In this document: piece by piece, positions 9,473 to 27,798 of the stretch
How the letters are laid out: every line of letters begins with the position of its first letter
How positions within the stretch are numbered: the stretch's first letter is position 1
Assembly: GCF_004684205.1 (NCBI RefSeq)
Contig: NZ_SRIO01000001.1
Location: forward strand, 186,001 to 250,000
Length of the DNA: 64,000 bases
Origin: Candidatus Macondimonas diazotrophica
GTDB lineage: Bacteria > Pseudomonadota > Gammaproteobacteria > UBA5335
Reading direction: 5' to 3'
Position numbers and translations under genes: made by a program
Notes under the pieces: model-generated
Database searches by the model: none
What the model saw: the letters and a program-made list of their open reading frames with translations, nothing else
What the model was told of the DNA's origin: nothing

Positions 9473-9751
9473 TCAGCCGGTGATTTGATAATGTCGCAGC
9501 TTCTTGCGCAGCGTCGCGCGATTGATGCCCAGAATCTCAGCGGCCTGGGTTTGATTGCCGGCCACGTGGGCCATCACCTGTTCGAGCAGCGGACGCTCAA
9601 CCTCTTCAATCACGAGCCGGTGCATATCCCCGGTGTAGAATCCCCCCAGCTCATGCAGATAGCGGCTCACCGCGCGCTCGACACAGATCCGGAGGGGAAG
9701 CTCTTCATAAACCGGCTCGACCGATGCGGCCGCTTGTTGCGCTGAATCCAT
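9473..9751 (-). CDS. fis: Fis family nucleoid-associated DNA-binding protein
   Basis: A small DNA-bending regulator of rRNA promoters, supercoiling and recombination. From the ATG at 9751 it has 92 residues, close to the 98 of E. coli Fis. The C-terminal helix-turn-helix reads [20 protein letters not shown] (about 68-87), nearly the family consensus, and the middle contains the dimer helices around [15 protein letters not shown]. An upstream in-frame ATG at 9817 would add a basic, unconserved extension and is not preferred. Usually dusB lies directly upstream of fis; here a DUF3426 gene and a 183-bp gap take its place. Confidence 0.93.
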
Positions 9752-9934
9752 AGACCGCTCGATCCCTTCGACGTCTGTGGTCACCGACTCCCGGCAGGGC
9801 ACCCGCATGGGGCACACGCCCCACCCCAGAAACCACCCCGGAAATCCCCCAAGAAGCCACCAAAGCCGATTCTCAATCCGCTCATCTTAAGCAGACTGAC
9901 TTGATCGCTCAAGACCGGATCCGACCGGCGCCAC
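9752..9934 (-). other. Gap between the DUF3426 gene and fis, with a possible Gly/Phe-rich mini-ORF
   Basis: This 183-bp stretch should hold the fis promoter. On the minus strand, 9885 to 9781 reads as a 34-codon frame starting ATG, rich in Gly and Phe in its first half and with two Cys near the end. The start has no clear ribosome-binding site, so I do not call it a gene. The same bases form a degenerate G-rich repeat (GGTGG-TTC-TGGGG units), which may be structural. No terminator with a T-run is visible. Confidence 0.35.
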
Positions 9935-23873: not shown

Positions 23874-25271
23874 ATGAATAGTCCCGGCGCTTTCATCAAC
23901 CTCGCCTATTTCGCCACAGCGGTGTTGTTCATCGTTGGCCTGAAGCGGATGGCCTCACCGAAGACCGCCAAGAGCGGAATCCTGTGGGCCGGAATCGGCA
24001 TGGTGGTCGCCACCGTCGTGACCCTGGGTCACCCGCATCTGGGCGAGATGGGCTTTTTCAAGTATTTCTTCCTGCTGCTGGCCATCGCCATTGGGGGAGG
24101 CGCTGCCTGGATTTCGGGCAAGCGCGTCGCCATGACCGATATGCCGCAGATGATCGCGCTCTACAACGGCATGGGCGGCGGTGCAGCCGGCGCCATTGCC
24201 GCTGTCGAGCTGGCCGGTAGCGAACACCACGGGGGCGTGGCGCTTACCCTCGCCGTACTGGGCGCCATCATCGGAAGCGTGTCCTTCAGCGGTAGCCTGA
24301 TCGCCTTCGGAAAGCTGCAGGAACTCATCAAGAAGCCCGTGCGCTTCCCCAACCAGCATCTCCTGAATCTCGGCCTGTTTGCGGTCACTGCACTGCTGGG
24401 CGTCTACATCGTCGCCAGTGGCGGCGAAGCGGGTGGATTCTGCATTGCCGTGTTCTTCTTGCTGGCTCTGGCGCTTGGCGTGAGCATGACCCTACCGATC
24501 GGCGGTGCCGATATGCCGGTGGTGATCTCGCTCTATAACGCCCTGACGGGTCTGGCCGTGGCATTCGAAGGTTATGTGCTCAACAATGCAGCGATGATCA
24601 TCGCCGGTACCGTAGTCGGCGCGGCCGGTACCCTGCTGACCCAGCTCATGGCCAAGGCCATGAATCGGCCGATCACCAACGTGCTGTTCAGTAATTTCGG
24701 AGCAACCGGCGAGGCGGCCAGCGTCGGAGAAAGCGGCGGCACGCTCAAACCGATCGAACCGTCCGATGCCGGTGTCTTGATGGCCTATGCCAACAAGGTC
24801 ATCATCGTGCCCGGGTACGGCATGGCCGTGGCCCAAGCCCAGCACAAGGTCTGGGAGCTGTGCCAGCTGCTGATCGATCGCGGTGTGAGCGTGAAATTCG
24901 CCATCCATCCGGTCGCGGGACGCATGCCAGGACATATGAACGTGCTGCTGGCCGAAGCGGGGGTGCCCTACGACATCATCTACGACCTCGAGGAAATCAA
25001 TTCGGAGTTCCCGACGGCGGATGTCGCCTTGGTCATCGGCGCGAACGATGTGGTCAACCCGATGGCGCGGACCAACCCGGAAAGCCCGATCTACGGCATG
25101 CCGATCCTGAACGTCGATCAGGCCAAGAACGTGCTGGTCATCAAGCGCGGCAAGGGCACAGGCTTTTCGGGCATCGAAAACGCGCTGTTCACGCTCGACA
25201 ATACACGGATGCTCTACGGCGACGGGCAGGAGATGGCCTCCCAGCTGATCGCCACCATCAAAGAGGTCTAG
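23874..25271 (+). CDS. pntB: NAD(P)+ transhydrogenase beta subunit
   Basis: 465 residues: eight or nine transmembrane helices (about 5-260) forming the proton channel, then the soluble NADP(H)-binding dIII domain (about 290-465). dIII shows VIIVPGYGMAVAQAQHKVWE (about 303-322), HPVAGRMPGHMNVLLAEA and GANDVVNPMA. Length equals the family norm. Last gene of pntA1-A2-B, followed by a strong intrinsic terminator. Confidence 0.97.
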   Translation: MNSPGAFINLAYFATAVLFIVGLKRMASPKTAKSGILWAGIGMVVATVVTLGHPHLGEMGFFKYFFLLLAIAIGGGAAWISGKRVAMTDMPQMIALYNGMGGGAAGAIAAVELAGSEHHGGVALTLAVLGAIIGSVSFSGSLIAFGKLQELIKKPVRFPNQHLLNLGLFAVTALLGVYIVASGGEAGGFCIAVFFLLALALGVSMTLPIGGADMPVVISLYNALTGLAVAFEGYVLNNAAMIIAGTVVGAAGTLLTQLMAKAMNRPITNVLFSNFGATGEAASVGESGGTLKPIEPSDAGVLMAYANKVIIVPGYGMAVAQAQHKVWELCQLLIDRGVSVKFAIHPVAGRMPGHMNVLLAEAGVPYDIIYDLEEINSEFPTADVALVIGANDVVNPMARTNPESPIYGMPILNVDQAKNVLVIKRGKGTGFSGIENALFTLDNTRMLYGDGQEMASQLIATIKEV

Positions 25272-25290
25272 CCGAGGCTTGCCCCGTCAA

Positions 25291-25316
25291 AAGGCCGGGA
25301 CCGCCCGGCCTTTTTT
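25291..25316 (+). terminator. Intrinsic terminator of the pnt operon
   Basis: A perfect 7-bp GC stem, GGCCGGG at 25293-25299 and CCCGGCC at 25304-25310 with a 4-base loop, extended by A/T pairs and followed by six T residues at 25311-25316, 20 bp after the pntB stop. Confidence 0.92.
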
Positions 25317-25587
25317 GTGCCGAAGTTGCGCCGGAGCATTTGACTTATGCACATCGATGGTCTCTTGCATATGGATCCTGCAGCTAGGACGAGCTATTCA
25401 TTGACGCATTGGAATTTCATGCTAACACATTGATTTTTATGTGTTCACAAATCGGTCACTTTGTCACCACTTCGTCGCAATCGTTGGTAGAACAGCAAGT
25501 TGACTCCATTCATCACGCCTTTCCCACAGGTTTATCCACAGATCGTGTGGATAATTGAGTTTCGTCAAGACCTTGACGCATAGCCAG
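25317..25587 (+). promoter_or_regulatory. AT-rich priA upstream region with three consensus DnaA boxes
   Basis: This 271-bp region is clearly AT-richer than its neighbours. It has TTATGCACA at 25345-25353, TTATCCACA at 25532-25540 and TGTGGATAA at 25546-25554. The last two face each other across five bases (GATCG), forming a 23-bp perfect dyad, and all three match TTATNCACA exactly. The dyad ends 33 bp before the priA ATG, and GATAAT (25550-25555) inside it could be a -10. GATC sites lie at about 25374 and at 25541. No gene is visible in the region. Confidence 0.7.
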
Positions 25588-27798
25588 ATGCCCGTGACTT
25601 CGACATCGGTATGGAAAATCGCCTTGCTGTCCGGAATCAGCCGGTCCTTGGACTACTTGCCGGCGGCGGGCTGGCGCGGTCCCGTTCCGCTTCATCACCG
25701 CGTCGTGGTTCCACTGGGAAAGCGGGCGGTCATCGGGTGGGTCATCGGCGAACGCGACCACTCGAGCCTCGACCCTGATCAGTTGCGGCCTTGTGAACGT
25801 GTGCTCGACCCAGAGCCGTTGCTCGATTCCGAAACCGTGTCATTGATTCAATGGACCGCACATTACTACCACCATCCACTGGGTCGAGTGCTAGCGACCG
25901 CGATCCCTGCCCCGCTGCGGCGTGGCGGACATGCCGATGTTCCGCATATGCCCCATTGGCAATTGACCAGGGCAGGCCAGGCTCAGGATCATGCCGGTGT
26001 GCGGGGTACGCGCCTGCAGGCGCTGCTTGCCCTGTTACGAGCGCACCCGACAGGTATGTCCTCGGGCCAGCTGGCGACGGCGCTACCGAATTATCGCGAG
26101 CCATTGCGCCGCGCCGTCGACCGCGGCTGGGTCGAGGATGCGCCCGCACCACCCCGCCCCGTGATCGATCCGGTCTTCGCCCAATCGCCACATACGCTGA
26201 ACCCGGATCAGCAACACGCGGTAGACACCTTACAGACGACGCGCGGTTTCGCTCCGGTCGTTCTGGAAGGGGTTACCGGAAGTGGCAAGACTGAGGTCTA
26301 TCTGCATGCTCTCGAAAGCGCGCTGCAGGCCGGGCGGCAGGCGCTCGTCCTCACCCCTGAAATCGGCTTGATTCCTCAGCTGTATCGCCGCTTGCAGGCG
26401 CGCTTTGGTATCCCGATTGCGTCATTGCACTCCGGCGCAACCGAGCGCCAGCGACTCCATGGCTGGCTGGCCGCCCGCGACCGGCATGCCCGCATCGTTC
26501 TGGGAACGCGTTCAGCAGTATTCACACCCTTACCGGAACTCGGGCTGATCGTCGTGGATGAAGAACATGATGTGGCCTACAAGCAGGAAGAAGGTCTGCG
26601 CTATTCTGCGCGCGATCTCGCGTTATGGCGTGCTCGCCACAATGCCGTGCCGATCATCCTGGGTTCAGCAACGCCTTCGCTGGAATCATTCCATCGTGCC
26701 GACCGCGGGGATTACCGCCTCCTGCGGCTGCCCCTGCGGACCGGCGAGGCCCAGGCTCCGGCAATTCACCTCATCGACATGCGGCCCTATCCGGCCGCGG
26801 ATGGCCTTTCTCCGCCATTGCTGCATGCCATCAAACGCGAGCTGGCCCAAGGCGGCCAGGCCATGCTCTTCCAGAACCGACGCGGCTACGCCCCGATGCT
26901 GCGCTGCCGAGCCTGCGGCTGGATTGCCGGCTGCGCCCATTGCGACGCCCGCATGACACTGCATCGCGAGCCGCGCAGGCAGGATCTGTTGATTTGCCAT
27001 CATTGTGGATTTCGTCGCGCCAGCCCGGCCGCGTGCCCCGAGTGCCACCAGCCGGCCCTGGACATCCTCGGAATGGGCACTGCACGCATCGAGGAAGCGT
27101 TGCGGCACCATTTCCCCAATGCCTGTCTGGCACGCATCGATCGGGACAGTACGCGGCGGTCTGGAAGCCTGGAACGCCTGCTGGACGCCGCTGTCCGTGG
27201 AGAGGCAAATCTGCTGATTGGCACCCAGATGCTGGCCAAAGGCCATCACCTGCCTCATCTCGGTCTGGTGGCCATCCTCGATGTCGATCAAGGTCTCTAT
27301 AGCCCGGACTTTCGGGCCAGTGAACGCATGGGGCAGCTGGTTATCCAGGTTGCCGGCCGAGCAGGCCGCGAATCACGCCGCGGGACGACCTGGATTCAGA
27401 CGCACCGACCCGATCATGCCTGGCTGCGCCAGTTGCTCGACGAGGGCTATGCCGCATTCGCACGCTCCCTGCTCGACGAACGTCGTCAGGCCAACTGGCC
27501 ACCATTCAGCCGCCTTGCGCTGCTGCGCGCACAAGCATCGAGCGTGGAGCGCGCCCTTGCGTTTCTGGCCCAGATTCCGAACTACGGCTCACCCCCGCCC
27601 GATGTGCATCTCCTGGGTCCGGTCCCAGCGCCCATGACGCGCCGAGCCGGGGCGCACCGCGCCCAACTGTTGCTGATGGCAACGTCCCCCGCGCCGTTGC
27701 ATCACTACCTGGATCGGCTGATCCCCCAGCTCTCCACATTACCGCAGCGGTCGGGCGTTCGATGGTCGCTCGATGTCGATCCGCAGGATCTTTTCTAG
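25588..27798 (+). CDS. priA: Primosomal protein N' (replication restart helicase)
   Basis: 3'-to-5' superfamily 2 helicase that reloads the replisome at stalled forks. 736 residues from the ATG at 25588; a TTG at 25555 would add 11 residues. N-terminal 3'-OH-binding domain has SRSLDYLPA. Helicase motif I GVTGSGKTEVY is near 231-241, and motif II DEEHD near 322-326. The zinc-binding insert carries paired Cys motifs CRAC, CAHC, CHHC and CPEC (about 441-480). The later motifs LIGTQMLAKGHHLP and QVAGRAGRESRRG are intact. Its promoter overlaps inverted DnaA boxes. Confidence 0.96.
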   Translation: MPVTSTSVWKIALLSGISRSLDYLPAAGWRGPVPLHHRVVVPLGKRAVIGWVIGERDHSSLDPDQLRPCERVLDPEPLLDSETVSLIQWTAHYYHHPLGRVLATAIPAPLRRGGHADVPHMPHWQLTRAGQAQDHAGVRGTRLQALLALLRAHPTGMSSGQLATALPNYREPLRRAVDRGWVEDAPAPPRPVIDPVFAQSPHTLNPDQQHAVDTLQTTRGFAPVVLEGVTGSGKTEVYLHALESALQAGRQALVLTPEIGLIPQLYRRLQARFGIPIASLHSGATERQRLHGWLAARDRHARIVLGTRSAVFTPLPELGLIVVDEEHDVAYKQEEGLRYSARDLALWRARHNAVPIILGSATPSLESFHRADRGDYRLLRLPLRTGEAQAPAIHLIDMRPYPAADGLSPPLLHAIKRELAQGGQAMLFQNRRGYAPMLRCRACGWIAGCAHCDARMTLHREPRRQDLLICHHCGFRRASPAACPECHQPALDILGMGTARIEEALRHHFPNACLARIDRDSTRRSGSLERLLDAAVRGEANLLIGTQMLAKGHHLPHLGLVAILDVDQGLYSPDFRASERMGQLVIQVAGRAGRESRRGTTWIQTHRPDHAWLRQLLDEGYAAFARSLLDERRQANWPPFSRLALLRAQASSVERALAFLAQIPNYGSPPPDVHLLGPVPAPMTRRAGAHRAQLLLMATSPAPLHHYLDRLIPQLSTLPQRSGVRWSLDVDPQDLF

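Follow-up and report, generated by a model that had tools for sequence, protein, structure and literature searches.

The 64-kb window analysed here, a stretch of 64,000 nucleotides from Candidatus Macondimonas diazotrophica (C1:186001-250000 of G000, a genome of 2.80 Mb in 94 contigs), contains a non-coding module of 210 bp at 25345-25554, which lies between pntB (23874-25271, plus strand) and priA, the gene for the replication restart helicase (25555-27798, plus strand; TIGR00595, 564.6 bits). A GC-rich hairpin with a T-run (25290-25316, plus strand), recognised by eye and missing from the terminator scan, is a probable terminator after pntB. The module opens with a distal DnaA box, box A (25345-25353, plus strand; TTATGCACA, an exact match to the 9-mer). 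This is followed by an IHF consensus site at -109 from box II (25423-25435, plus strand; TAACACATTGATT, 0 mismatches to TAAnnnnTTGATW) and a Fis consensus site at -78 from box II (25454-25468, unstranded; GGTCACTTTGTCACC, 14 of 15 positions of GnnYAnnnnnTRnnC, one mismatch), both consensus sequences being those printed in the available portions of PMC4245941 and PMC8682772. The module closes with a core of three DnaA boxes: box III (25520-25528, plus strand; TTTCCCACA, one mismatch to TTWTNCACA), box II (25532-25540, plus strand; TTATCCACA), which starts 3 bp past box III, and box I (25546-25554, minus strand; TTATCCACA inverted), which lies 5 bp past box II and faces it head-to-head. Across the module the order is distal box, IHF, Fis and then the core III-3 bp-II-5 bp-I.

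The original prediction had described three 9-mer DnaA boxes at 25345, 25532 and 25546 in an AT-rich region before priA, with the last two forming a perfect dyad 33 bp before the priA ATG, and each of these features is present. The dyad TTATCCACA-N5-TGTGGATAA occurs once in the window, the ATG lies at 25588, and the GC content of 25345-25554 is 43% versus 64% for the window, a value as low as in just 0.05% of 2127 equal-size windows. An in-frame TTG at 25555 abuts the dyad, and box I touches the first possible priA start codon. Box III (TTTCCCACA, 25520), the IHF and Fis consensus sites and a second genomic copy were absent from that description. The density of boxes, also checked, is far above background in window shuffles and in the whole genome. 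The three boxes are the only matches to TTATNCACA in the 64-kb window, where shuffled sequences hold a mean of 0.29 and three or more occur in none of 100 shuffles. Because there are only 18 copies of TTATNCACA in the whole 2.80-Mb genome, compared with 13 of the reversed control, three boxes within 210 bp lie far above background. Together with the zero reversed controls across the class genomes described below, the shuffles and genome counts lead us to reject a chance origin of the box cluster.

The core has the geometry of the E. coli sites DARS1 and DARS2. In NC_000913, the DARS1 core reads, reversed, TAATACACA-TGG-TTATCCACA-GGAAT-AGTGGATAA, and the DARS2 core reads TTCTTCACA-ACT-CTATCCACA-GAAAA-GGTGAATAA, both with the III-3 bp-II-5 bp-I arrangement of the module. 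The accessible text of PMC10380432 describes head-to-head boxes I and II as characteristic of DARSs and essential, and box III as stimulating; here boxes I and II stand head-to-head with box III beside box II, at 25520/25532/25546. A weight matrix whose training modules excluded this priA copy and all E. coli sequence gives E. coli DARS1 (bioD-uvrB), which shares the core spacing and orientation, the top E. coli score of 36.7, followed by DARS2 at 17.5. A half-overlapping register inside DARS1 scores 8.7, and the best values in the E. coli priA and hemW regions are -26.2 and -25.7. In the genome under study, the window copy scores 37.9, a second copy near hemW scores 22.7, and the best score in 400 kb of other G000 sequence is -8.0. 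The matrix is strict because its training set allows no variation at those core positions which the search pattern specifies.

The likeness to DARS2 extends beyond the core. DARS2 requires IHF and Fis according to the available sections of PMC4245941, whereas DARS1, in the part of PMC8682772 available, is not described as dependent on them; the module has both consensus sites. In E. coli, DARS2 lies between rppH/ygdT and mutH, likewise with boxes I and II head-to-head, intergenic or nearly so, and with the IHF and Fis sites on the box III side. Our scan places its core at L158:3136-3170 and finds IHF sites 3 bp apart, in agreement with the accessible portion of PMC4245941. The IHF sites (L158:3229-3257, about -71 to -99 from box II) are nearer the E. 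coli core than the Fis site (L158:3281-3295, about -123 to -137), whereas in the module Fis is at -78 and IHF at -109, so that both sites stand on one side of the core at set distances but in swapped order. The module also differs in its same-strand distal box at -187 and in its genomic place. A further, degenerate core of three boxes, again with gaps of 5 and 3 bp, lies in the right half of E. coli DARS2 (L158:3452-3486; matrix score 16.1); it was rejected as the DARS2 core in favour of the position given above. The module is off-origin and intergenic, as DARSs are, but it lies at priA and hemW, and the enteric places beside uvrB and mutH were not found for it. Since we take synteny to be a feature of close relatives and not of mechanism, we classify the module as DARS2-like and not as DARS1 or DARS2 itself.

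A search for the three-box core pattern with at most 3 mismatches returns exactly two copies in the genome, the one described here and one at C2:10932-10966, downstream of hemW and before kdsD. The hemW copy has a distal TTATGCACA and a total length of 213 bp; its Fis site at -77 fits the consensus perfectly, and its IHF site at -111 has one mismatch. The two modules hold 5 of the 18 TTATNCACA of the genome. A lack of box conservation in relatives, together with a box density at background level, had been set beforehand as refuting the original prediction; the result does not refute it, as the boxes are conserved in the genus, family, order and class. With the core called present at 6 or fewer mismatches of 26 specified positions, it stands before priA in 16 of 29 loci with usable upstream sequence (own genome included; L022, with a truncated priA, dropped), and at hemW in 12 of 30 loci, in G009 1.3 kb beyond the gene. 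No recognisable core was found before priA in the other 13 of 29 (best values 8 to 14 mismatches) or at hemW in 18 of 30 (9 to 13 mismatches). In the 16 priA loci with a core, the distal box is exact at 195-229 bp in 12 and has one mismatch in three; it was not found in the remaining one (G034). Both copies are present in the congeners G001 and G002, for which both loci were available. In L015 (G013), two tandem modules lie upstream of priA; their distal boxes are at -638 and -368, and the second module shows slight decay.

Among sampled genomes of the class, 84 of 276 carry the exact module, and 122 of 281 match a search for the exact II-I dyad by itself; the reversed controls are 0 throughout. 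In a sample of the phylum, the module was found in 5 of 89 genomes of the same class (own included) and in 0 of 160 genomes of other classes. A scan of the named-species genomes, given as 84,980 in number, for the distal box, 168-196 bp and the dyad yielded at least 118 stretches which, by record title, come nearly all from beta- or gammaproteobacteria or unspecified Proteobacteria, including Duganella, Collimonas, Rugamonas, Nitrosomonas, Stutzerimonas, Methylomonas, Sedimenticola and Woeseiaceae. The three non-proteobacterial matches examined, in Lentilactobacillus (L050, L088) and Thermosporothrix (L143), have 3-5 mismatches in box III, are off by 2-3 in the Fis consensus and yielded no IHF consensus (3-4 mismatches); because all three elements are weak, we read these matches as chance or as another type of site. 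One match labelled Deltaproteobacteria (L115) is equally weak. In both Lentilactobacillus loci, the distal box and dyad lie near an htrA-like gene at the same length of 205 bp without box III and an IHF site, which suggests a conserved DnaA-box cluster of a different kind. Modules may also cluster on one contig, with three within 100 kb (G549:C12:152709-251173), two 17 kb apart (G119:C22:97814-115324) and two only 170 bp apart (G215:C209:4937-5527).

Box III and the IHF and Fis sites were absent from the search pattern. Their positions were examined in 107 nonredundant modules (12 of 119 dropped as redundant, and L050 and L088 also dropped), which took in the first 80 of the 118 listed scan loci; the spacing, neighbour and ORF counts used all 118. 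Box III matches TTWTNCACA with at most one mismatch in 82 of 107 and at most two in 103 of 107, compared with at most 7 at control offsets. The Fis consensus is found with at most one mismatch exactly at -78 in 72 of 107 (mean 1.45 per position, shuffle maximum 8), and the IHF consensus with at most two mismatches at -110/-111 in 81 of 107 (mean 1.93, shuffle maximum 8). All three elements, at no more than one (Fis), two (IHF) and two (box III) mismatches, are carried by 81 of the 118 listed loci. The length from the start of the distal box to the end of the core falls, among these 118, into groups of 200-203, 209-217 and 221-224 bp. Three loci fall outside these groups at 205 bp and another at 228 bp, and lengths of 204, 206-208 and 218-220 bp do not occur among the 118. 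The 104 matches from class genomes, whose lengths were entered by hand, share the main peak at 209-217 bp (mode 213) and include single values of 206 and 219; one of 204 bp comes from a later sample. The distances of Fis and IHF from the core stay the same in the groups below and above the main one, where only the distal box shifts. The spacing groups fit a helical-phase constraint without proving it, since the steps between them are about 12 and 9 bp and common descent also affects them. A strict 10.5-bp periodicity is unproven, the Rayleigh strength being broad, with 0.63 at 10.5 and a best value of 0.67 near 11.8. Nine of the 20 loci of 200-202 bp belong to one group beside sbcB and recR.

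The genomic neighbours bear on the suggestion, made in the original prediction, that the boxes form a DnaA-controlled operator or promoter of priA. The module lies directly upstream of priA, in the same orientation, in 31 of the 118 listed loci, its commonest place, and the contact of box I with the first possible start codon in the window speaks for the same role. However, 27 of the 118 listed loci lie downstream of hemW, 9 beside sbcB/recR and 5 at gltA (gltA, sbcB, recR and hemE were named by eye from sequences), and the flanking ORF calls are convergent in 19. Because the module sometimes stands between convergent genes, we regard it as not chiefly a promoter. Its distance to the priA match ranges from 49 to 936 bp in the listed loci, a promoter scan found no sigma-70-like promoter at the locus, and the boxes have neither a fixed place relative to a promoter nor a position that is always upstream. 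A literature search, with most subscription journals outside its reach, found no paper on a DnaA-controlled priA promoter or on such a site at priA or hemW. Control of priA as the main role, the option of the original prediction that finds no support, is thus improbable. The recurrent sbcB/recR site (L062, L085, L106, L118, L120, L125, L130, L136 and L137) is often between convergent genes, and all its modules have 200-202 bp spacing. That the dyad is instead an RNA hairpin or terminator with coincidental DnaA-box letters would agree with the terminator scan, which flags it, but the hairpin would have just 3 G-C pairs, the conservation of its letters is that of DnaA boxes, one pair is broken in the hemW copy (TGTGGAAAA), and there would be no explanation for box III or for the IHF and Fis sites. 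We consider this reading exceedingly improbable. Of the 118 listed modules, 116 have no covering ORF of at least 150 aa.

A main or accessory replication origin, which the original prediction rightly held less likely, would account for AT-rich DNA that carries DnaA boxes together with IHF and Fis sites, a combination that E. coli oriC also has. Yet oriC has head-to-tail arrays and an unwinding element, whereas the module has a head-to-head pair, no change of skew and no origin neighbours. All stretches sampled along C1, which flank the module on both sides over about 300 kb, have negative GC skew; the sign changes on C5 at dnaA, where the genes have the canonical order rnpA-rpmH-dnaA-dnaN-recF-gyrB with DnaA boxes of their own (rnpA and rpmH named by eye). 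It is because the skew changes at dnaA, and not at the module, that we do not take the module for oriC. The dnaA-dnaN gap (L033:4545-4707), at the skew change, holds two exact DnaA boxes and one near match and is likely the oriC of G000. None of dnaA, dnaN, recF, gyrB and yidC is among the two nearest reference hits per side in the 118 listed loci. G027, whose genome is a single contig, has negative skew in the samples up to 1.40 Mb, a value close to zero at dnaA (1.51 Mb) and positive skew from 1.78 Mb on; a module at 1.26 Mb, 249 kb from dnaA, lies between two samples of negative skew. An origin at the module is therefore very unlikely. Titration is the more serious contender, and one the original prediction had named: a DnaA-titrating or datA-like site would lower active DnaA by holding it or by IHF-aided ATP hydrolysis, with no reactivation, and would share many of the sites. 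High-affinity boxes are clustered here, with 5 of the 18 genomic TTATNCACA in the two modules. The IHF consensus is flanked by the distal box and the core; for datA, activity needs boxes 2 and 3 and an IHF site, according to the accessible part of PMC4585315. E. coli datA likewise has DnaA boxes around an IHF site and is off-origin, but it acts in the opposite direction, through ATP hydrolysis. Titration requires neither exact gaps of 3 and 5 bp, nor two boxes that face each other, nor a Fis site at a constant offset; the available text of PMC10380432 describes the head-to-head I/II pair as characteristic of DARSs, and the matrix finds both DARS1 and DARS2. We therefore hold a titrating or datA-like role to be possible but unlikely, and reactivation to be the option of the original prediction that fits best.

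The distance of modules from dnaA, as a fraction of the replichore, is 0.17 and 0.68 in G027, 0.71 and 0.68 in G079, 0.34 in G125, 0.57 in G041 and 0.71 in Nitrosomonas CP091135. As the values in these five genomes vary from 0.17 to 0.71, the module lies away from the origin but at no fixed place. Copies closer to dnaA occur in G115 and G118, whose lengths are rounded values. E. coli DARS2 and DARS1 lie at about 0.41 and 0.66 of the replichore from oriC. Elsewhere on C2, an inverted TTATACACA pair (L035:4749-4784; G000:C2:242748-242783) stands just before an integrase-like gene recognised by eye and is probably a mobile-element operator, not a DnaA site.

Candidate partner proteins are encoded in the same genome. 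Hda is present (TIGR03420, 216.4 bits versus a cut-off of 194.8), as are three IHF/HU-family genes. A fis homologue lies within the window (9473-9817, minus strand; NF001659, E 2.2e-27), its 95.6 bits just below the curated cut-off of 99, beside purH and near prmA in the usual fis neighbourhood (neighbours named by eye). Of the class genomes, 119 of the 251 that have a Fis match carry the exact dyad, versus 3 of the 30 that have none, ten of the latter having been derived by hand from the result lists. The Fisher test (p 5.5e-5) ignores ancestry, and the association is confounded by genome reduction and shared ancestry.

The core geometry, the IHF and Fis consensus sites at fixed offsets, the discrete distal spacing, the conservation, the second copy, the partner genes and an oriC elsewhere argue that the module is probably a DARS2-type DnaA-reactivating site in a variant layout, with the Fis/IHF order swapped and the distal box at discrete spacings. 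Points that weigh against this reading are the reversed Fis/IHF order, the absence from uvrB and mutH, the wide range of distances to dnaA and the relatives in which no core is recognisable at priA or hemW. As its construction resembles that of the E. coli DARS sites, the module probably belongs to the replication timer rather than acting as a priA switch. From this likeness we infer protein binding, looping and nucleotide exchange with ADP release at the module. After initiation, Hda would convert ATP-DnaA to ADP-DnaA, which would bind core boxes I and II, the facing boxes bringing the AAA+ domains head-to-head. Box III would reinforce the DnaA complex on the core, while IHF and Fis at their fixed distances would bend and brace the DNA, and the distal box, on a set helix face, would let further DnaA close a loop. 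ADP would then be released, and apo-DnaA would depart and take up ATP, restoring initiation competence at the predicted oriC by dnaA.

That DARS-like sequences exist in many proteobacteria is already known from reviews: the available text of PMC10380432 reports similar sequences in many proteobacteria, and that of PMC5742627 places DARS-like sequences in beta- or gammaproteobacteria proximal to E. coli. The DARS2 figure in the accessible part of PMC8682772 covers E. coli, Shigella, Erwinia, Yersinia, Photorhabdus, Rahnella, Vibrio and Shewanella. We put the chances at about even that the module represents a second widespread architectural class of DnaA-recharging site in beta- and gammaproteobacteria outside the enteric-Vibrio-Shewanella group. 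Such a class would combine a rigid core-Fis-IHF block of about 130 bp with a distal box set off by roughly whole helical turns (200-203, 209-217 and 221-224 bp in total), implying a closed DnaA-IHF-Fis loop; it would prefer priA and hemW and may predate DARS1 and DARS2. Reading such places gene by gene invites their interpretation as a priA promoter, of which the original prediction is an example. Natural variation in loop length and in the order of IHF and Fis would place constraints on how the DARS2 complex folds. DARS function has been worked out in E. coli, and a common module that shares this core and can be defined with a simple pattern would make the ATP/ADP-DnaA cycle testable in many bacteria.
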